64,000 bases of DNA. Origin: Roseivirga sp. E12. Lineage in GTDB: Bacteria; Bacteroidota; Bacteroidia; Cytophagales; Cyclobacteriaceae. The DNA lies in contig NZ_JAGFMD010000006.1 of NCBI RefSeq assembly GCF_017592825.1, positions 186,001 to 250,000 on the forward strand, given 5' to 3'. The position numbers and the translations under genes were made by a program. This document shows positions 6,276 to 16,179 of this stretch, piece by piece; positions within the stretch are counted from its first letter, which is position 1, and every line of letters begins with the position of its first letter. A model generated the notes under the pieces. The model ran no database searches, was not told where the DNA came from, and saw nothing but the letters and a program-made list of their open reading frames with translations.

Positions 6276-6289
6276 GCTAATTAGCGACT

Positions 6290-9200
6290 CTACTTCTTGA
6301 TCACCTTAAACCGATCAACCTTTTCTTCAGTAGTAATCAACAGAATGTAAATGCCATCAGCGGAAGATTTCAACCGCTGTCTTACCCAGTCGACTCCATC
6401 TTCAATACTCAACACCTCCTGATATGTATTGCGCCCTCTTGCATCAATAATTTGGAAAAGGTACTTCCCAAATCGATCAACAGAAGGGTCAATTAGTGTT
6501 AATTCGAAATCGTCACCATTGGTAGGGTTGGGAAAGAATTTCCAACTTGGGGTTCGAAGTTTTGGGGCACGGTCGACAGCTACGGAGATAATAGGGCTGT
6601 ACTCGAAACTTCCGGAAAAATCCACCTGTTTCAGTCGGTAAAACAAGTTGCCAGCCATGTCCGGTACTTGATCATCCACAAACGAGTAGTTGATCAATAC
6701 GTCAGAATCTCCATTACCCGCAACAAAGTCTAAATCGGTGAAATCTGCTCCATTAATTGATCTTTGGACTACAAAATGATTGTTATCTGTCTCTGCAGCA
6801 GTCTGCCAATTTAGCTCTACATTCCTTGAATTATTCAGCTCTCCGGTAAAAGAAACCAGGGTGACTGGCAAAGGAGAAATGTTATTAGTTACCGCCATGT
6901 AAACACGACTAGTCCCTGTAAGGGTGATTGTTCTTTCTCTGAAGTAAGGATCACTACCGCTTTTAGTGGCAATGTTACTTCCAACATCCCAGAAACGATC
7001 CATTGATGGTAGGTTGGTATCATAAATACTGATCCCAACATCATCTCCAAGTGTATCGTCCTCATCGGTGCCATCCCAAGTAATTCTTACAGTCACAGTT
7101 ACAGGCGCAGTACCCGACCTCAACCTAATGCGCCATTGGCTTCTAACCACATCATCAGTGATTAAGCCGGAAGAGGTTGTAGGATTCGTATAAGGACCAC
7201 TTCTTGCCCTCAAAGTATATCTAGCCCCAGAACAACCTGAGGAGCAACTTACTACAACAGGTCTATATGGGTTATAACCTAAGGGAATCGTGAGTGGGTC
7301 ATTACCGGTTAAGAAAAAATCAACCCCAATTTCATCATCTGTATCGTTATCATTTAAATCTAGGTCTGTATCGATGTAGCTTGTAGCACTGCCTCCGACA
7401 ATATTAATTGCACTTCCATCAAAACCGAGTGTTACGGTTGTGCTTGCCGCTATTCTGATGAATCCTTCAGTGAGTGTTAGGTTATCTCTAATGGTAAAGT
7501 TCTCTTCAAAGTCCACTGTTCCAGAGGCAGTTCTATTGATCGTGAAGTCGCCTAGAGTTTCTCCACCAGTAGTAAAGTCTATAGTTCCTAAAGCGCCTGT
7601 TCCACCTACTGAGATATCGGAGGTACTGCTACCAGTGATCGTTCCGGCCCCGGTAATCGTTCCATTCAAGGTGAGTAAGTTTGAGCCAATAGATAGGTCA
7701 CCTGCGGATATATTCAAAATTCCTCCAACCGTAAGAGCGCCATCCATTGATTTAGTTCCGCTACCACCGACTCCCATATTATTATAGTCCGTTCTAGCCG
7801 TTACTGTCTGCGCCCCTGCTGCGTCATATGTAATGCTAGATGCCGCACCAATTGTGACACTACTTAGTGTATTGGCAAAAGCAGTTGCCGCACCACCAGA
7901 TAATCCATTGGCATTGGACGTGGTCAAGGATCCATTAATCACAGCACTACCCGTTCCGCTTATGACGCTTGCATTCATGTCCAAAGTATTAGAAGCATCC
8001 TGTGTTAGCGTACCATTGACTGTAATGTTATTCTGTACAACCACTGTGGCAGACGTATTGGAAATGGTCAGGTTGTTAAAAGTGCTTGAGCCTGAAGAAG
8101 TGATAATATTTTGTGCACCTGTTCCACTTATAATGAAAGTTCCGTTAGTGGCGTTGAAGGTTGCCCCTGTATTGTTGAAGTCTCCCCTTAAATTGGTGGT
8201 AGTATTATTTGTTTGATTGACTGTGCCAGCCGATAAATCCCAGTCACCGGTTATATCCAAATCCACATTTGCGAGATTCTTGGCACTCGTTCCGGTGAAA
8301 ATCAATGCACTAAAACCGTCAGGGGTATTAATCAATGTCCCATCATTAGTATCACCTGTATAATTAACTGTTCCGGTAAACCCAGAGATGTCAGCTGATG
8401 GAAAGCTAAAGTTATTACTTGCTGTTGCTTCCAGCGTGAGCTCTCCCGATCCGGTAATATCTCCGAAGGTATGACTGAGTGTAGAAACTAGATTTAAGGT
8501 GCCCTCAAGGACAAGCGCAAATGTACTTCTGGAGTTAGCCGTAATGGTAACTTCATGCCCTGACCTTATAGTCACGTTATTTCCCGCGGGCGCTGTAGAG
8601 GGTAATGGAGCACTGTCGGTTCCATCACTATTAAAAGTCCATGTACCCGCGGTTTCCCAATTGCCTCCTCCAGAGCCTGCTGTGGCGTTTCTGCTATAGT
8701 AGGTTTGAGGTGTTCCGAATTCTGCGGTTTCTCCGGCAGTAAAATCACCCGTCACAAAGCTGACTCCCGTATAGGTAATTGTATTATTAGTGTCATTGAC
8801 TCGTCTAGTAATACCAACATCAAATTCATCTCCGCCATTAGGTGTCCATGCGCCACCTACCACACGACCAGCAAAATAAGAGCCTTCAGCTCCTTGTACA
8901 TCAGTCTCGACATAGTTAAATATGAGTGTAGAGGTCACTCCAGAAAGGCCCGTACTACTCAGTCGATAGTAATATAGCAGCTCAGTCGCACCAGCATCTG
9001 TGGTCAATGGATGGGCTTCATTAAACAAAGCGAGAGTCACCGATCCGGTGGCAGAATTTGCAGTTAAATTGACGGTTACCGGTGTATAATCGGTGCTTAT
9101 GCCTACCGGAAATGTGAAGTTGCTAGCACTGGCCGGATAGTTCTTAGTGATGTTATTATTAGATGACGTGCGGATCATTTTGGTTCCTGAAAAACCTGAA

Positions 9201-12200
9201 CCCGTAATGGTATTAGCATCTCCGAAAGTGAGCGCATTACTACCTATACTATAAACTACCGATCCATTGAAATCAAGATCTCCATTGATTGTAGTAGCAC
9301 TACCTACTGTAATGGTTCTACTAGTACCATTTAACGTAATATTTCCAAAGGGGCCAGTACCGGTTAAGTTGTGGTCTGCATCTGTAAAGGAAATCCCCCC
9401 GGTACCGACAGTTCCACTTGTGTGTGTTGCGTTATTCGTTACATTCCCAGTAATAGTCAAAGTACGCCCCCCATCTTCCATGGTGCCACTTGTCAATGTT
9501 AAGTCTCCGGCTATTGTGGCATCGTTTGTGCCACCAAGAGTAAGTGTCCCTGAGCTCTTGTTGACAACGAAATTGTTGAAGGCGGTGGTCGTATTGAAAG
9601 TTGCAGCCTGAGCACCGGTACCATTGAAAGTGGTGGTATTCGATCCTGTTGTATAGGTTCCTGAATTAGTGAGATCTCCACCTATTGTGACATCAAGTCC
9701 ATTGGTGTCAAATACACTATTGGCTTCTGATAGGGTTAACGCGCCATTCAACGTAATACCAAAAATATCCAAGTCCAGAGTGGCGGTATTGCTTCCTCCA
9801 TTACCGGTGATAGTAAGATTATTCAGAGTGACATTAGCATCCATTGTATAAGCTTGGTTACCCGCGGTACCTGGAGCAAATACGATGGCACCCCCAGACA
9901 CCGTAGAGGAACCTGGCCTCAAGTGCAAGTCATCAAAGGTGGTACCTCCACCTCTAACAATATTCAAAGTGCTGCTACCCGACATATTGAATACACCGCT
10001 ATTGGCTACTTCCAGTTTAGCTCTTGTCGCTAAATTGGATCTACCATTTATGGTAACGGTTCCTCCAGACTGGGTATAAGTTAATGATCCATTGGTATTC
10101 ACTGCACTCCTTCTAATCTGTCCATTAACGAAGAGGGTTCCTCCTTGGACGTCAATCGTAGGCGTCCCTATGCTGGCATATTCGATATCATTGTTATTGG
10201 CATTTGTAGAGGTTCCAATGTTAACTGTCCCTGTAATGATCTCCAATTCTCCATTTAAAGTCAGGTCATTCGCATTGCTTGCTCCTGTGGCAATATTGAT
10301 TGTTCCTCCATTGGCAGACAAAGCCGCTGTGGAAGGAATAGTGAGAGTGGTGGAAGATGCTGTAATTGTGGTTGCTGTGGTTAATCGGAAAGTCCCGTTA
10401 GTCAATGTCAAACCGGGATCTCTTGCGATAGCAAAATTACTCGAAGTTACCTCTAGAATTGAGGTGGCCGAAGTACCCTTATCTACTTCAATACTTGCGA
10501 ATTCGGTAGTCCCTCCTGTACCTGAAATACTGGTGTTGGCAGCCGAAGTGAATACTGTTCTAATAAATGCATCTGTGTTTGACAAATCCAGTGAACCATT
10601 GTTAACCACATTTCCATGAATAGTCATTGTCAGCCCAGTAGAGACAGCGGTATTATTCATTCGAATATCACCTTCCACAGAGAGGTCTCCCATAATGATA
10701 ATGTTCCTGGTTATTGCCGTGGCCCCTTCTCTTATTCTAAGAAAGCCTCCTGATTGAACAGTGAGATCTCCATTGATTGTAATGTCTCCGCCAGAAGCAT
10801 TTTGTGAAGTTTGAACTCTATTGAGATCTGTACCACTGCCTATTGTCATATCATTGAAGACAGTGATTGACTGGTCGGGTGTGGTTATTCTGTTCTGTCC
10901 ACCTGTGTTAATCGTCAAGTTGTAAAATGTTGCAGGGGAAATATCTGGAATTGTATATGCCTCATCAGCAGTGCCAGTATTGAAATATTCAACCGTACCA
11001 CCAGAGGCTCCCAAAAAACTTGTAAAGTCACCACTCGGAAAACTAGCTCCCGCGATACGCAAGGTTCCAGTTCCATCCGTAGTTGAAAAAATATGGCCGG
11101 TCGTTTCAGCCAGATTTAAAGTGGAGCCTGAGGCTATGGTCAAAGCAGCGGCTTCTTTGATGTTGGCCTCCGCTGTAACGGTGTAGTTGTTGGATCCTCC
11201 ATCTCCAATTAAAACAACATCCTGAGCTCCAGGCACACCTGTGGCAGCAGCTCCTCCATGTCCGACTGTAGACCAAGTAGTTGTTGTTCCCCAGTCGCCA
11301 TTCGCTCTAGCATAATAGGTAAGTGGATCAGAAAATGCATCCGCAGCCGTGAATTCCCCCTCAAAGTAAGAGACATTAGTGACAGTGAACTGATCGCTTC
11401 CTTCAATCACCTGACCCGGAGTTCCTGAATCTCCTAAGTCTGTCCAACTTGATCCAAGATATCGGCCCGCCCTATAACTGGCGTCACTTCCATTGGTCGG
11501 GTAGTCATAGGTGTGTGTAACTGTGGCGGATGTCCAACCACTTTCTGATACGACCCAATAGGCACCAACACCGGTATTGCTCATTCCCAGTATAGGGTGG
11601 TCTATGGAAAGAGGCTTGACTGTGATACTTCCAAAGCCACTGGCGGTGAAAGTATAGGTAGCTGGTAGGTAATCTGTACTTGTGCCAACTGGTAGTACGT
11701 AAGCCGTGGCGTTACCTGAGAAAGTTTTTGTGATTCCTCCATCCGAGGCATTACCAGCGGTTTGAATGTATCGAGCAGAAGTCTGCCCGCTTGTCACTCC
11801 TGAAGTTCCTAGTGCCAAGTTATTCGTTCCAATATTAAAAAGTTTGTCATTGGAAAAAGTAAGTGTCCCATTGATCGTCATGTTAGCTGAAGTAGAAACC
11901 GGAGCAGCAGCAGCGTTAGTATTGAACAATGTCAGGTTTTGAAAGATACCGGAGCCGTCTCCCGAGACAGTCTGGGTATTCGCACCATTTAACTGAATAC
12001 TTCCCGAACCGCTGTGTGTCGCACTATTTACGACATTGCCTGCCACAGCTATGGTCTTGCCATTGTCATCAAAGGTTCCGCTCGTCAAAGTCAGTTGATC
12101 TATTACCGTAATAGTCGCTGGAGAAGATGCTGATAGACTGAAAGTCCCTGTGCTTTTGTTGACTGTGAAATCATCGAAACCCGTAGTCACAGTCCCTTCA

Positions 12201-14347
12201 ATGGTCAAAGTCTGCGTTCCCGATCCGTTGAATGTGGTAGTGTTGGTTCCTGGAGTATATGTCGTTCCTGAATTGATGGTAAAATTGCCCCCTACAGTTA
12301 GGTTGTCATTATCCATATTGAGAACAACATTTTGGTCCAAAACCAAGTCATTTTGAACCTCTAGATTCGTTAAATCGATGCCATCATTCATAGGACGAAC
12401 ATCTGCTGTGGCTCCATCTAGGTCTTCCCTTACCGTTAGATTATATAATGGCCCAGGAACTGTTATTCCAAAATTATTTGCATCAGTAACTTCCGCGATT
12501 ATCGTTCCACCGGTAACGGAAAAATCCTGCGCTCTAGTTTGGATGCTTATACCACCTGTTGCCGAATTTGCATCACTTACAATCAACGTTCCATTGGTCA
12601 TGGTAAATGAGCTCTGGGCTTCAGATAAGTTGGTCGATTCCATGTCAAACCTAGCTACATTTCCGTTGTTTCTTCCATCATTATTAAAAGTAACCGTGCC
12701 TCCGGTTTGCGTATAAGAGGCTTTATTATTCGTAGATCCTGAGTTAGCACGCCTAAACTGTGCAAGTGTCATAGTTCCTCCCTCAATCAATATTTCGGCA
12801 TTACCTCTATAGTTAATTCCCGGACCATCTCCCCCAGTAACAGTACCACTAGTCAATCGGAAAAGTCCGTAAATGGCAATTCCCTGATTACCTCCATTGC
12901 TCCCAGTATCTTCGGATAACGCAACTGTAGCTCCATCTATCCAAAGACCGCCATTGCTCGGTACATAAAAGTGTTTGGTGCCTTCGGTTAGAGAAAATAT
13001 CTCAATGTTAGTATTTAGTTTGAGCGTCCCTGTTCTTATCCAAAGGGCTTTGGTCACATTATTCGGATTCTCGGTGTTTTCATTATTATCATTGGTGGTT
13101 CCATACAGTTCAAAATTTCCTGTAGCATTGGCGCTGACCGTAAGCAAGAAAGTCTTATCTGTTCCTTTATTGACAATAAGCCTGTAGAAGTCTGTTGTAC
13201 CATTACAGACAAGTACGTTATCAGCAGCACCGGTGAATGTCACTATAGCAACACCTACAGAGGGATCAACCGTGTAGCTAGGTGTTACCTGTGCGGTGAA
13301 CCGTACTGATCCACTGTTCGTAAAGTCAGCACCCACCTCAATATTATGCTCCGTTAATGCAACACCGGTCCTTATTATAATGCTTGAGGTTGCATCCACA
13401 GTAACATTTCCTGACCATGTGATATTTCGTACGGTGGCGTCATCACCTATAGTAATGTCACTATCATTTTCGAGTGTAAATGTCCCATTAACTGTCAGGT
13501 CAAGGCCTAAGGTCAAATCGGAGTTATCAAAAATTAGATTGTTATAGGTTGTTTGATCGCTAGTAGTCAGGGTGGCAGTTCCTGCATTGTAGTATTCAAA
13601 AGTACCTCCAGAGGTTGTAACAAAGTCATTAGTAGTACTGCCTGGAAACTCCGCAGTGCTACGCATTAATCCAGTACCCGAAATTGTCGTAAACGTATGT
13701 CCATTGGTTGCACCAAGATCTAGGGTACCATTGGCATTGACATCCATTGAATTGACATCAAAGTCATTCTCTGAAATTGTCACTGTTCTATTGGCCAAAA
13801 TTACTACATCATCAACTGGGCTAGGAACTGCCGAGTTGACTAAAGTCACTCCTGATGAATTAGTCGTCCAGGTACCAGGGCTTTCTGCATTGCCATTTTG
13901 GAAACTGTAATAGGTCTGAGCCGCTGTGGTTGCCGTACTTGTAGTCGGAACTGAGGTTAGCAGATAGTCAGGATCGTTGGGAGAGCCACCGGTGTTGAAT
14001 TCATAGGCAGCAAAGTGGTATGTGGTACTGGCACTCAATCCACGAATAGTAGTGGAGGTTCCGGTTCCAATATATACCACATAATTACCTGTACCTATCT
14101 GAGTTCCTAGACTAAATCGGTCGGCCGTGTAGGTAGTATTATCTGATGGGTTCGCATCTACGGCAGAACCAGATTTTGCCAAGATAATGATGTTCCCCCC
14201 ATTGCCCCGGGTCCAGGAAAGTGTAAGGGTTCCTGACCCAACATCTGCTGTTGACAAACCAGATGCCTGGGTAGTAGGTTCCTGTGCTACTCCCATAAAT
14301 GGAACTAGCAAAAGCACACTGAATAGTATGGTTTTAATCCTGAGCAA
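6290..14347 (-). CDS. Giant T9SS-secreted surface protein (adhesin-like, repeat-built)
   Basis: 2,685 residues. Signal peptide (MLRIKTILFSVLLLVPFMGV) followed by a fibronectin-III-like domain (~24-140). The core is three long modules of about 870 residues, each opening with a similar block: 'TYYSFQNGNAESPGTWT' near 146, 'TYYARANGDWGTTTTWST' near 1009 and 'TYYSRNATAGSGGGNWE' near 1882. Within modules, short Thr/Asn/Gly-rich strands recur ('NNLTI', 'TTTFNGTGAQ', 'NGTLTL'), as in beta-solenoid adhesins. Near 2500 there is a linker 'PLPVTLVSFTGELNNSRNVE' and then the T9SS sorting domain ('FFPNPTNGDDFELTL', 'DGIYILLITTEEKVDRFKVI'). It is expected on the cell surface, in adhesion or gliding; no ligand can be named. 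Cysteines are few, clustered at 'SCSSGCSG'. The DNA shows no frameshift. Confidence 0.92.
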   Translation of the reverse strand: MLRIKTILFSVLLLVPFMGVAQEPTTQASGLSTADVGSGTLTLSWTRGNGGNIIILAKSGSAVDANPSDNTTYTADRFSLGTQIGTGNYVVYIGTGTSTTIRGLSASTTYHFAAYEFNTGGSPNDPDYLLTSVPTTSTATTAAQTYYSFQNGNAESPGTWTTNSSGVTLVNSAVPSPVDDVVILANRTVTISENDFDVNSMDVNANGTLDLGATNGHTFTTISGTGLMRSTAEFPGSTTNDFVTTSGGTFEYYNAGTATLTTSDQTTYNNLIFDNSDLTLGLDLTVNGTFTLENDSDITIGDDATVRNITWSGNVTVDATSSIIIRTGVALTEHNIEVGADFTNSGSVRFTAQVTPSYTVDPSVGVAIVTFTGAADNVLVCNGTTDFYRLIVNKGTDKTFLLTVSANATGNFELYGTTNDNNENTENPNNVTKALWIRTGTLKLNTNIEIFSLTEGTKHFYVPSNGGLWIDGATVALSEDTGSNGGNQGIAIYGLFRLTSGTVTGGDGPGINYRGNAEILIEGGTMTLAQFRRANSGSTNNKASYTQTGGTVTFNNDGRNNGNVARFDMESTNLSEAQSSFTMTNGTLIVSDANSATGGISIQTRAQDFSVTGGTIIAEVTDANNFGITVPGPLYNLTVREDLDGATADVRPMNDGIDLTNLEVQNDLVLDQNVVLNMDNDNLTVGGNFTINSGTTYTPGTNTTTFNGSGTQTLTIEGTVTTGFDDFTVNKSTGTFSLSASSPATITVIDQLTLTSGTFDDNGKTIAVAGNVVNSATHSGSGSIQLNGANTQTVSGDGSGIFQNLTLFNTNAAAAPVSTSANMTINGTLTFSNDKLFNIGTNNLALGTSGVTSGQTSARYIQTAGNASDGGITKTFSGNATAYVLPVGTSTDYLPATYTFTASGFGSITVKPLSIDHPILGMSNTGVGAYWVVSESGWTSATVTHTYDYPTNGSDASYRAGRYLGSSWTDLGDSGTPGQVIEGSDQFTVTNVSYFEGEFTAADAFSDPLTYYARANGDWGTTTTWSTVGHGGAAATGVPGAQDVVLIGDGGSNNYTVTAEANIKEAAALTIASGSTLNLAETTGHIFSTTDGTGTLRIAGASFPSGDFTSFLGASGGTVEYFNTGTADEAYTIPDISPATFYNLTINTGGQNRITTPDQSITVFNDMTIGSGTDLNRVQTSQNASGGDITINGDLTVQSGGFLRIREGATAITRNIIIMGDLSVEGDIRMNNTAVSTGLTMTIHGNVVNNGSLDLSNTDAFIRTVFTSAANTSISGTGGTTEFASIEVDKGTSATSILEVTSSNFAIARDPGLTLTNGTFRLTTATTITASSTTLTIPSTAALSANGGTINIATGASNANDLTLNGELEIITGTVNIGTSTNANNNDIEYASIGTPTIDVQGGTLFVNGQIRRSAVNTNGSLTYTQSGGTVTINGRSNLATRAKLEVANSGVFNMSGSSTLNIVRGGGTTFDDLHLRPGSSTVSGGAIVFAPGTAGNQAYTMDANVTLNNLTITGNGGSNTATLDLDIFGITLNGALTLSEANSVFDTNGLDVTIGGDLTNSGTYTTGSNTTTFNGTGAQAATFNTTTAFNNFVVNKSSGTLTLGGTNDATIAGDLTLTSGTMEDGGRTLTITGNVTNNATHTSGTVGTGGISFTDADHNLTGTGPFGNITLNGTSRTITVGSATTINGDLDFNGSVVYSIGSNALTFGDANTITGSGFSGTKMIRTSSNNNITKNYPASASNFTFPVGISTDYTPVTVNLTANSATGSVTLALFNEAHPLTTDAGATELLYYYRLSSTGLSGVTSTLIFNYVETDVQGAEGSYFAGRVVGGAWTPNGGDEFDVGITRRVNDTNNTITYTGVSFVTGDFTAGETAEFGTPQTYYSRNATAGSGGGNWETAGTWTFNSDGTDSAPLPSTAPAGNNVTIRSGHEVTITANSRSTFALVLEGTLNLVSTLSHTFGDITGSGELTLEATASNNFSFPSADISGFTGTVNYTGDTNDGTLINTPDGFSALIFTGTSAKNLANVDLDITGDWDLSAGTVNQTNNTTTNLRGDFNNTGATFNATNGTFIISGTGAQNIITSSGSSTFNNLTISNTSATVVVQNNITVNGTLTQDASNTLDMNASVISGTGSAVINGSLTTSNANGLSGGAATAFANTLSSVTIGAASSITYDAAGAQTVTARTDYNNMGVGGSGTKSMDGALTVGGILNISAGDLSIGSNLLTLNGTITGAGTITGSSTSDISVGGTGALGTIDFTTGGETLGDFTINRTASGTVDFEENFTIRDNLTLTEGFIRIAASTTVTLGFDGSAINIVGGSATSYIDTDLDLNDNDTDDEIGVDFFLTGNDPLTIPLGYNPYRPVVVSCSSGCSGARYTLRARSGPYTNPTTSSGLITDDVVRSQWRIRLRSGTAPVTVTVRITWDGTDEDDTLGDDVGISIYDTNLPSMDRFWDVGSNIATKSGSDPYFRERTITLTGTSRVYMAVTNNISPLPVTLVSFTGELNNSRNVELNWQTAAETDNNHFVVQRSINGADFTDLDFVAGNGDSDVLINYSFVDDQVPDMAGNLFYRLKQVDFSGSFEYSPIISVAVDRAPKLRTPSWKFFPNPTNGDDFELTLIDPSVDRFGKYLFQIIDARGRNTYQEVLSIEDGVDWVRQRLKSSADGIYILLITTEEKVDRFKVIKK

Positions 14348-14584: not shown

Positions 14585-14661
14585 CAAAAAAATCTGATTC
14601 TAATGATTAAAAAAGCTGATAATCAATCTTCCGATAGATATTGAAATGCCGTAATTGAAGA

Positions 14662-14680
14662 AAGTAGCCTCGCTAGGAAT
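14662..14680 (-). repeat. tRNA-Arg 3'-end copy 1 (attachment-site-like)
   Basis: 17 of 19 bases match 16105-16123, the 3' acceptor and T-stem end of the tRNA-Arg gene, including an unbroken 13-base match cctcgctaggaat. Orientation is the same as in the intact tRNA, and it lies downstream of the tRNA 3' end, the geometry left by site-specific integration into tRNA genes. Confidence 0.6.
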
Positions 14681-14849
14681 TTTTTGATTCCTGACAATCA
14701 GTGACTTGCTTAATTAGCATAAAACAATGTGAGTAACACATTAGTAATTTGGAACAATCAGCTTACTCAAAAGGAACCCACAGAACTTGGGCTGAAGGAA
14801 CTAGGGTTACATCTCCTTTTTGTATTTAGCACTGCCTTATTGAATGCCC

Positions 14850-14907
14850 GTGAGAACGTATAGAGCGATGGTCGAACGCTAATTCAACAACCTGCCTCTT
14901 TGATTCA
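14850..14907. repeat. Diverged direct repeat, copy 1
   Basis: Shares an ordered set of blocks with 15267-15344: GTGAGAAC, ATAGA, CGA, CGAAC, ATT-AACAACC-G and CTTTGAT. Copy 1 is shorter in the middle. The two copies are in the same orientation about 417 bases apart and bracket the 38-residue ORF and its terminator, like the ends of a small cassette. Confidence 0.5.
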
Positions 14908-15041
14908 GAAAACTTCTCTATTTTAAGCCCTTTTAGTATCTTTATTATAATCTACCAAAATGGTAGTCCCATGAGACGGTGTATCATCCGATGAGATCCG
15001 GTGCCCTGCTAGTCTAGCAAGGTAAATCTCAATAAAGAGAC

Positions 15042-15158
15042 ATGTTTATATACTTAGAACTGGGAATGCCTGAAGCAATTGTTATTGCGGCTGTCATTAC
15101 CGGTTTGTTCAATTTACTTAGTGCATTGGTCCGTGAGGAGAGAACGGAAAGGGAATAG
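15042..15158 (+). CDS. Possible 38-residue membrane peptide
   Basis: ATG at 15042 opens a 38-codon frame: a hydrophobic helix ('MPEAIVIAAVITGLFNLL') followed by a charged tail (VREERTERE). Purine-rich AAAGAG lies just upstream of the start. A strong stem-loop with a T-rich tail follows 10 bases after the stop, so this frame seems to sit on its own short transcript. A one-helix peptide with a charged tail is the shape of small membrane proteins, including type I toxins, but I recognise no family. The 98-codon frame on the opposite strand (15029-15325) runs through the terminator and is less likely. Confidence 0.45.
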   Translation: MFIYLELGMPEAIVIAAVITGLFNLLSALVREERTERE

Positions 15159-15168
15159 ACTCCCATTG

Positions 15169-15200
15169 AAAGGCTGCCATAAGGTGGCTTTTCCTTTTCT
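15169..15200 (+). terminator. Rho-independent terminator after the 38-residue ORF
   Basis: AAAGGCTGCC, loop ATAA, GGTGGCTTTT gives a 10-pair stem (three wobble pairs), followed by TTCCTTTTCT. The U-tract side is on the plus strand, matching the small ORF. Confidence 0.65.
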
Positions 15201-15266
15201 TCCGACTCTTCAATTGGCAATTCTTTATAGGCTAATATTATGAAAGCACAATCTTGGCAAACGTTA

Positions 15267-15344
15267 GTGAGAACACATAGAACGAACGATAGCCGAACCA
15301 AAAAGCGAAGACTCTTATTAAACAACCAGGGTTCTTTGATAAAG
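15267..15344. repeat. Diverged direct repeat, copy 2
   Basis: Second copy of the repeat at 14850-14907, with about 19 extra bases in the middle. It ends about 30 bases before the second tRNA-3'-end copy. Matching blocks include GTGAGAAC, ATAGAACGA, CGAAC, AACAACC and CTTTGAT. Confidence 0.5.
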
Positions 15345-15373
15345 GCGTGAGTAAGGAATAACTAGTTGATGAT

Positions 15374-15391
15374 AATAAGTGACCTCGCTAG
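15374..15391 (-). repeat. tRNA-Arg 3'-end copy 2 (attachment-site-like)
   Basis: 18 of 18 bases (aataagtgacctcgctag) are identical to 16102-16119, which spans the last 12 bases of the tRNA-Arg gene plus 6 bases beyond it. Same orientation, 728 bases away. The match running past the tRNA end argues for a recombined attachment core rather than chance. Confidence 0.72.
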
Positions 15392-15619
15392 AGGTTTTTA
15401 ACAAACTAATTTTCAGTTGCTTATAACATTGCTATAAACAATTTAGATAACGGATAATAGTATTACCCTCAATTCATCAAGTTTGCAATAAGTTTACTTG
15501 AATCAACACTCTTTGTTCATACAATTTAGTCTTGAGTAAAATTAAAAATACCCAGAAGTAGGTATTGAAATAGCGCTAATAAAACTAGAGCATTATATTG
15601 CTTAAAGTACTTATCCAAA

Positions 15620-16096
15620 ATGAAAATTGATCCGGAGCAAACATATTTCATTCAAGAATATTGGCAAGGATTAATTGCAGTGTTAGCATTGGTGCTGTCA
15701 ATGATATCTTTATGGATCCAACGAACACATAACAGAAATTCTGTTCGCCCAATAATCAATTTGTCCAGGTACAAGGAAAAAGGCAGATACAAGGTTAAAA
15801 TCGAGAACAAAGGTCTTGGGCCAGCTTTAATTAGCAACATTCAGTACAAAAAGTATGGAGAATCATTAGACCATGACGCTTTTTGTTATAGAATTACAAA
15901 GATTCGTCAAAAACCATCCAATTGGAACTTCTCGGCAGGATTCACAGCAGCTGTAGAGCCAGGAGCTCATATGCTTGCTTTAAATTTAGATTTAGATAAG
16001 CACAAGAACCTTGATTCAAACATTGAAGGTTGGGATTTGCACATTGAGTATAAAGACTTATATGGAAAACCCTTCACTAGAGTTGGATCTCTTTAG
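15620..16096 (+). CDS. Uncharacterised single-pass membrane protein in the tRNA-Arg strip
   Basis: 158 residues. A short polar N-terminus is followed by one membrane helix (about 15-33, 'GLIAVLALVLSMISLWI'), then a cytosolic or periplasmic domain beginning 'RPIINLSRYKEKGRYKVKIE' with 'NKGLGPALISNIQY'. This R-P...N-x-G-x-G-P-A pattern is typical of small immunoglobulin-like beta domains behind a membrane anchor. I recognise no named family. It lies between two copies of the tRNA 3' end, ends 12 bases before the tRNA gene and converges on it, so it is probably cargo of an integrated unit. No integrase accompanies it. Confidence 0.7.
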   Translation: MKIDPEQTYFIQEYWQGLIAVLALVLSMISLWIQRTHNRNSVRPIINLSRYKEKGRYKVKIENKGLGPALISNIQYKKYGESLDHDAFCYRITKIRQKPSNWNFSAGFTAAVEPGAHMLALNLDLDKHKNLDSNIEGWDLHIEYKDLYGKPFTRVGSL

Positions 16097-16107
16097 AATC
16101 AAATAAG

Positions 16108-16179
16108 TGACCTCGCTAGGAATCGAACCTAGATCTAAAGTTTAGGAAACTTCTATTCTATCCATTGAACTACGAGGCC
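16108..16179 (-). tRNA. tRNA-Arg (anticodon CCU)
   Basis: The minus strand folds into a full cloverleaf of 72 bases: acceptor GGCCTCG/CGAGGTC, anticodon stem GAAGT/ACTTT with loop TTCCTAA (anticodon CCT, reading AGG), T-arm CTAGG-TTCGATT-CCTAG, discriminator A. No CCA is encoded. It lies 30 bases downstream of hflX on the same strand. Its 3' end is copied twice further downstream (15374-15391 and 14662-14680). Confidence 0.96.

Follow-up and report, generated by a model that had tools for sequence, protein, structure and literature searches.

Results

Copies of the tRNA-Arg(CCU) 3' end divide the adjoining strip into two units

Inspection of a 64,000-nucleotide window of the Roseivirga sp. 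E12 genome (contig NZ_JAGFMD010000006.1, positions 186,001 to 250,000 of the forward strand) reveals a single tRNA gene, a tRNA-Arg(CCT) placed by ARAGORN at 16107-16179 on the minus strand and written tRNA-Arg(CCU) below. Beyond its 3' end lies a strip of DNA that carries two further copies of that end, all in the same orientation, which divide it into a tRNA-proximal unit 1 and a distal unit 2. We consider it very likely that the two units are tandem right-end remnants of decayed site-specific genomic islands, dead or dormant, and similar to cis-mobilizable elements (CIMEs). Genomes are designated by G numbers (G000 being the window's own) and single loci by L numbers. The repeats and units are:

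16107-16179, minus strand: intact tRNA-Arg(CCU), its 3' end the probable integration target (ARAGORN; Rfam RF00005, 66.2 bits)
16102-16119, minus strand: tRNA-side attachment core, CTAGCGAGG followed by TCACTTATT, the latter probably supplied by the element; 18/18 bases against the middle copy
15392-16101, no strand: unit 1, the putative tRNA-proximal remnant, 728 bp from one repeat to the next, with the tRNA end on one side and the middle copy on the other
15374-15391, minus strand: middle copy and junction of units 1 and 2, 18/18 identical to 16102-16119
14681-15373, no strand: unit 2, the putative distal remnant, 715 bp repeat to repeat, defined by the repeat boundaries and a shared gene fragment
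14660-14680, minus strand: distal copy, ATTCCTAGCGAGGCTACTTTC, the relatives' form of the tRNA end; 17/19 bases over 14662-14680

A direct-repeat search returned the repeat family at 14662, 15377 and 16105, with spacings of 715 and 728. These results agree with an earlier reading made from the sequence alone, which had counted 18/18 bases for the middle copy at 15374-15391 and 17/19 for the distal copy at 14662-14680, in the same orientation and spaced by 728 and about 715. The repeat had also been said to run 6 bases past the gene; the ARAGORN boundary corrects this to 5 for the middle copy. Both mismatches in the distal copy amount to one adjacent swap (GA/AG on the plus strand), which is the most informative part of that copy.

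Chance was assessed on several scales. The pattern AAGTNNCCTCGCTAG has three perfect matches in the 64 kb, where 0.02 matches with at most one mismatch are expected and none of 100 shuffles reached three. Allowing one mismatch, AGTGACCTCGCTAG has three matches in the 4.7-Mb genome: the tRNA, the middle copy and a single other place, the last with one mismatch; its reversed control matches once genome-wide. In the roughly 12-kb flanks of 40 relatives, a reverse-strand control scored no higher than 11, compared with 18 and 13 on the same scale for the window copies. Tail copies are not peculiar to tRNA-Arg(CCU), since for eight of the genome's 29 other tRNA genes the best same-strand score in the 12-kb 3' flank likewise reaches 13 or more. 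Several of these eight are real tail copies, and at least two (scores 13 and 14, at distances of 5.6 and 8.3 kb) look like chance, so that the distal copy rests more on the AAGTNNCCTCGCTAG shuffle test, its tail and its arm site than on its score.

The tRNA tail appears to have been replaced

On the strand of the tRNA, the sequence at its own 3' end reads CCTAGCGAGG-TCAC-TTATT and the middle copy CTAGCGAGG-TCAC-TTATT, whereas the distal copy reads CCTAGCGAGG-CTAC-TTTC. The relatives nearest by hflX identity (G006, G003 and G016) end CCTAGCGAGG-CTAC; the same ending is found in 6 of 40 genomes sampled outside the genus (G128, G065, G022, G083, G028 and G038). Another 20 family tRNAs yielded one more CCTAGCGAGG core, in G087, ending CCAC. 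The count draws on 16 genus flanks with lengths from 5.5 to 32 kb, G008 and G009 having given no tRNA match. Of the 109 family genomes in which the tRNA was matched it takes in 60, namely the 40 and the 20 just described. Over this sample the core is followed by CTAC in nine of the ten relatives that have it, by CCAC in one (G087) and by TCAC in none. Because the distal copy has the relatives' CTAC while the window tRNA and the middle copy have TCAC, the tRNA most likely carries a replaced tail and its older tail has been displaced to the distal copy, which would make the tRNA-proximal unit the younger of the two. Integration into the 3' end of a tRNA gene produces just such a tail pattern.

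Integrase-bearing islands occupy the same tRNA in relatives

The closest relative searched, G006, shows 83% nucleotide identity over the region from the tRNA to hflX. Its FKBP-type gene stands within 6 bases of the tRNA and the strip is absent there; the window homologue of that gene lies 9.8 kb from the tRNA, beyond the strip and a giant open frame. In G003 the tRNA is occupied by an 18-kb island that encodes a 391-aa tyrosine integrase at +137 to +1312 (Arm-DNA-bind_5, Phage_int_SAM_5 and Phage_integrase domains) and ends in an 18/18 copy of the tRNA end at +18133 to +18150. The island in G005 extends over 25 kb, from an integrase 57% identical to that of G003 (start at +92 or +137, end at +1318) to a tRNA-end repeat at +24841 to +24855, and carries QatABCD (L085:13776-18494; QatB less strongly matched) and AbiE. 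Integrases of the G003 type (E<=1e-100) are present in 2 of 19 genus genomes, G003 as the query and G005, both at tRNA-Arg(CCU). A distant relative (E 2e-17) sits at another locus in G016, and viral contigs held no match to the G003 integrase. Three cargo proteins of the G003 island had no PADLOC match, and it is not counted here as a defense island.

Shorter units occur at this tRNA as well. G010 has a 2.03-kb unit with AbiEii/AbiEi, a copy of the tRNA end, and then about 1.4 kb with SoFic and a second, degenerate right end; it offers a parallel for stacking with the cargo intact. A 1.41-kb unit with a single SoFic gene, followed by flank common to G011, is found in G017, and G018 has an AbiE unit of about 1.94 kb with a copy near +1930 (16/20 bases against the tRNA end, counted by eye). 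G002 provides a parallel for decay: it retains an island left end with the first part of an integrase gene, followed by AbiE, without a clear far copy, and its genome has no match to the G003-type integrase. Altogether, a tail copy is present in 5 of the 16 genus flanks (G003, G005, G010, G017 and G018), and known defense genes (AbiE, SoFic, QatABCD) lie at this tRNA in five of the 16 relatives (G002, G005, G010, G017 and G018). Among named genomes, the best HflX match is 68% identical, and tRNA-Arg(CCT) accompanies 7 of 80 loci, two of which have a similar tail within 150 bp.

The sequence-only reading had proposed two site-specific insertions in tandem at the tRNA 3' end, and both the replaced tail and the relatives' islands at the same tRNA support it. 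Conservation of the same strip in all relatives, which it had named as contrary to insertion, was not observed. That is to say, the comparison of related genomes finds the strip absent at the G006 tRNA, and elsewhere islands of full size, short units different from these, or nothing detectable.

A paired repeat stands at a near-constant distance from most right-end cores

Comparison of element ends brought out the paired repeat TTGTT-N6-AWTGTT. On the integrase side its start lies exactly 112 bp from the tRNA end, with no mismatch in G003, in G005 and at a second element end of G005, and with two in G002. At far ends it lies 62-63 bp before the core with at most two mismatches in seven of eight cases, both window units included: none in G005 and at two G010 ends, one in unit 2, and two in G003, G018 and unit 1. 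The background rate for matches with at most two mismatches is about 7e-4 to 1.2e-3 per position. We propose the repeat as an arm-type motif, for which the six perfect examples outside the window would be definition enough, and it may be the arm-binding site of the integrase. The window examples are:

15425-15453, minus strand: unit 1 right-end arm-type repeats CCGTTATCTAAATTGTTTATAGCAATGTT, matching TTGTT-N6-AWTGTT with 2 mismatches 62 bp before the core and 0 mismatches 50 bp before it
14723-14739, minus strand: unit 2 right-end arm-type repeat GTGTTACTCACATTGTT, 1 mismatch, 63 bp before the core

A broken piece of an island gene lies in unit 2

Within unit 2, similarity to the islands of relatives was located at two places:

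15241-15354, plus strand: 5'-end fragment of an island gene, with the start codon lost, the frame broken and the rest missing (blastn, local alignment)
14850-14909, plus strand: candidate second fragment from this gene start, in a more decayed state (local alignment)

The source gene of the first fragment is intact in the G003 and G005 islands, with products of 249 and 235 aa (MAEPKA..IQQLGFFD..). Against G003, blastn aligns 62 bp at 82% identity (E 3e-10) and local alignment scores 93, where shuffles gave 24.2 +- 4.6 with a maximum of 44 in 500; against G005 the score is 43, with shuffles at 21.1 +- 3.6 and a maximum of 41. The stretch 14850-14909 scores 40 against the first fragment (shuffles 20.8 +- 3.5, maximum 32 of 500), and its assignment as a second fragment is suggestive only. 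Found in 2 of 116 family genomes (E<=1e-5), the intact gene encodes a product that looks by eye like a PD-(D/E)XK nuclease and is not recognized by Pfam, PHROGs or NCBIfam. At the nucleotide level, unit 2 as a whole drew three outside matches from 118 family genomes, a sample in which G000 and G018 alone represent the genus; all three are short and weak (E>=0.0018).

A 38-codon frame at 15042-15158 in unit 2, read by eye only, was not accepted as a gene. It would encode a short hydrophobic peptide with a charged tail, and by eye a hairpin and a T run follow it.

The strip lacks a tyrosine integrase and recognizable transfer genes

Three open frames of at least 60 aa (158, 98 and 62 aa) occur in the strip; none has a Pfam match, and no transfer gene is recognized among them. 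The longest fills much of unit 1:

15620-16096, plus strand: 158-aa open frame, the only candidate cargo of unit 1, with an N-terminal hydrophobic stretch (by eye) and a domain with an NKGxGPAxI motif

Pfam, NCBIfam and PADLOC returned no match for this frame, and PHROGs a weak one of unknown function (E 2e-4). It has matches in 12 of 118 family genomes, its own included, where two distant paralogues reside. The only RNA family found in the strip (Rfam, E<=1) is the tRNA. Unit 1 also contains a palindromic AATACC..GGTATT block (15536-15567) that recurs at L002:1501-1532 (91% over 32 bp), with similar blocks in the tRNA flanks of G011 and G017; it is possibly a regulatory site.

The sequence-only reading had found no integrase in either unit, in line with the absence of PF00589 loci from the strip. 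The whole genome has two such loci, best matched by the XerD model (above cut-off) and the XerC model (below cut-off). No island integrase was found in strip or genome, a result that covers the tyrosine type only, as serine recombinases were not searched.

Discussion

A history of insertion and decay

The pattern fits the following course of events, in which both the acting integrase and the order of steps are read from sequence comparison. A tyrosine-integrase family of the genus would use the tRNA-Arg(CCU) 3' end as its bacterial attachment site. On integration, an island's own copy would replace the tRNA tail, leaving the tRNA functional, and the old tail would be pushed to the far end. In the window lineage this would have happened at least twice, the newer island adjoining the tRNA: the tail TCACTTATT would then be common to the tRNA end and the junction between the units, and the older CTAC tail would now stand at the distal copy. 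Both islands would since have lost their integrase side and nearly everything else, keeping the core and the right-end arm site; left after this decay would be one open frame in unit 1 and a broken gene fragment in unit 2.

Measured against the features of known element classes, the strip has the far-end direct repeat of the tRNA 3' end expected of a tRNA-targeting tyrosine-integrase island. The island-encoded integrase is present in G003 and G005 and is the part missing from the strip and its genome. Of the CIME features, the strip shows the absence of transfer genes and, within the PF00589 search, of an integration gene of its own. For the paired attachment sites attL and attR, the units have cores and right arm motifs, and left arm motifs were not found. 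For a possible origin by deletion from an integrative and conjugative element or an integrative and mobilizable element, unit 2 offers the gene fragment and both units the core and right arm motif, all common to integrase-bearing islands that may themselves be either of these or satellites. The units are most likely immobile at present, because no left arm motif and no island integrase were found.

Several observations weigh against this history. The TCAC tail is not in itself unusual, being found with other cores in 5 of the 16 genus tRNAs (G001, G002, G005, G010 and G015), and over the 5.5 to 27 kb examined, a clear tail copy is missing from 11 of the 16 genus flanks. The window ends were among those on which the motif was first noticed, two cores (G018 and the second G010 end) were placed by eye, and the G017 right end does not fit the spacing. 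In the window as a whole, matches with 0-1 mismatch are not enriched (10 found, 6.86 expected), so that only its distance to the cores makes the motif informative. At +112 the left-end motif is missing from both window units, whose best matches have 2 mismatches at +84 and +78; this absence fits deletion, and also units that never had the motif. The candidate fragment 14850-14909 is weak, scoring 40 against G003 (a shuffle reached 48) and 29 against G005 (a shuffle reached 40). Unit 1 has no blastn match (E<=1e-3) in the tRNA 3' flanks of the 16 genus relatives, whose whole genomes were not searched at the nucleotide level, and for this reason its core and arm motif carry the whole case for its origin from a larger island.

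Alternative explanations

The units could instead be minimal cassettes of core, right arm and cargo, with one defense system each, moved in trans by the integrases of visiting islands. Short units without an integrase do recur, at 2.03 and about 1.4 kb in G010, 1.41 kb in G017, about 1.94 kb in G018 and 0.73 and 0.72 kb in the window, and the SoFic gene is oriented oppositely in G010 and G017. Set against this, all short units lack the left arm motif at +112 (G017 has a 1-mismatch match at +39), and where a phage satellite mobilized in trans would be expected to have intact ends, the window units' left ends have no arm motif at the usual place. AbiE is carried by the 25-kb G005 island as well, G002 keeps an island left end and a broken integrase start beside AbiE, and the unit 2 gene is broken. 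We regard the cassette explanation as unlikely. Equally doubtful is its extension, in which units of 0.7-2 kb form a working class of integrase-free defense cassettes, a core and right arm suffice for integration, and AbiE and SoFic are shuffled and stacked; were it true, single defense systems would be stacked at tRNA-Arg(CCU) without a recombinase of their own. The sequence-only reading had offered both possibilities. One version, in which whole units of about 0.7 kb were inserted as such and mobilized in trans, is disfavored by the missing left-end motif and the broken gene in unit 2, while the other, larger elements decayed to 0.7 kb, gains from that same broken island gene and from the right-end arm motif in both units.

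Local duplication of the tRNA end by slippage or unequal exchange, without any recombinase, would account for copies that share orientation and locus. It is disfavored because the tail is replaced: the distal copy has the relatives' form and not that of this tRNA. Moreover, nothing in the G006 tRNA flank matches the intervening DNA, and integrase islands with the same repeats occupy this site in relatives; we give duplication very little credence. The strip might also belong with a group of GIY-YIG nuclease mini-units that lie 3' of other tRNAs and have tail copies about 350 bp away. This genome shows such geometry at its tRNA-Asp, -Ala and -Asn genes, and another genus has an apparent example at tRNA-Arg(CCU) (G049, by eye). 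This assignment is highly improbable, given that the strip has no PF01541 match, the TCCCGA..TCGGGA palindrome found near GIY-YIG genes occurs nowhere in the window, and both the arm motif and the gene fragment speak for the integrase class. Decayed integrase-bearing islands remain the explanation we favor.

Neighboring features

Directly beyond the distal copy the window continues with one very long frame:

6290-14347, minus strand: 2685-codon open frame, inside the 9.8 kb missing from G006 between the tRNA and the FKBP gene

It has no Pfam match above cut-off, the best being fn3 and G8; G016 holds a 68% relative elsewhere in its genome, and G006 has no match. A third attachment copy at its far side (about 6278-6292) was considered and rejected, as resemblance to the G006 tRNA end was no better than that of random 44-mers (p = 0.67). 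Because of this result, the giant gene is not claimed as cargo.

The GIY-YIG units at tRNAs of this genome appear to be a different class from the strip, and a stranger one. In G000, 5 of 10 small single-domain GIY-YIG genes lie within 0.5 kb 3' of a same-strand tRNA, four of them within 0.2 kb. The loci include L182 (tRNA-Asp), L189 (tRNA-Ala), L178 (tRNA-Asn) and L184 (tRNA-Val/Pro), and partial copies of the tRNA tail stand at +346 (Asp), +348 (Ala) and +353 (Asn). Across the genus, 8 of the 30 loci returned start 46-170 bp 3' of a tRNA; five of these eight have a tail copy scoring at least 20, with 44/44 at L245. Pseudo-tRNAs near GIY-YIG genes have, by eye, the anticodon arm replaced by a TCCCGA..TCGGGA palindrome (L259, L182, L178, L189 and L255). 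Five tandem tRNA-Ala-derived units with a period of 128-129 bp stand directly upstream of the real tRNA-Ala in G006 (L259:1376-2463). In each of two further genera (L228 of G049 and L208 of G131), a frame that by eye looks GIY-YIG-like, and in G131 broken, lies between tRNA-Arg(CCT) and a downstream pseudo-tRNA that is interrupted, also by eye, by GC-rich palindromes. No bacterial description of GIY-YIG units at tRNAs was seen among the literature titles listed.

Relation to known systems

Among the titles and abstract beginnings listed, whether on islands at tRNA-Arg in Bacteroidetes or on tandem tRNA islands that lack an integrase, this site does not appear. The mechanism is already established; the present case adds a clean example, a proposed arm motif and a specific, testable pair of integrase and target. 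It offers a readable record of successive insertions at one tRNA: comparison with relatives brings out both the tail replacement and the older tail that was displaced, as well as the decay and the proposed arm sites. tRNA-Arg(CCU) is a repeated landing site in the genus, and the defense genes beside it in five relatives suggest that such cargo can persist after the integrase that delivered it is gone.

One close likeness is to CIMEs. PMC5704250 sets out a history in three steps: an element integrates, it decays to a CIME still possessing attL and attR, and the next element joins it by accretion. CIMEs, described there as remnants of integrative and conjugative or mobilizable elements, resemble the window units in having lost their integration genes, kept their attachment cores and stacked in tandem at one target gene. 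The window units differ in being much smaller (0.7 kb) and in that no left arm motif was found; for them a conjugative or mobilizable parent island, like mobilization itself, would be conjecture. At ssrA of Dehalococcoides, tandem islands are bounded by 20-bp ssrA repeats, and 15 lack an integration module, according to PMC3146451. Several tandem islands at one RNA gene, some without an integration module, are a shared trait. The Dehalococcoides islands involve a serine recombinase, a tmRNA target and reductive dehalogenase genes; here a tyrosine-integrase family, tRNA-Arg(CCU) and, in several relatives, defense genes are concerned. tRNA gene fragments are a widespread by-product of integration according to PMC9897764, and its partial tRNA duplicates made by integrative elements correspond to the copies in this strip. 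The data of that paper are archaeal (Thermococcaceae), whereas the displaced older tail in the window lets the order of events be read.

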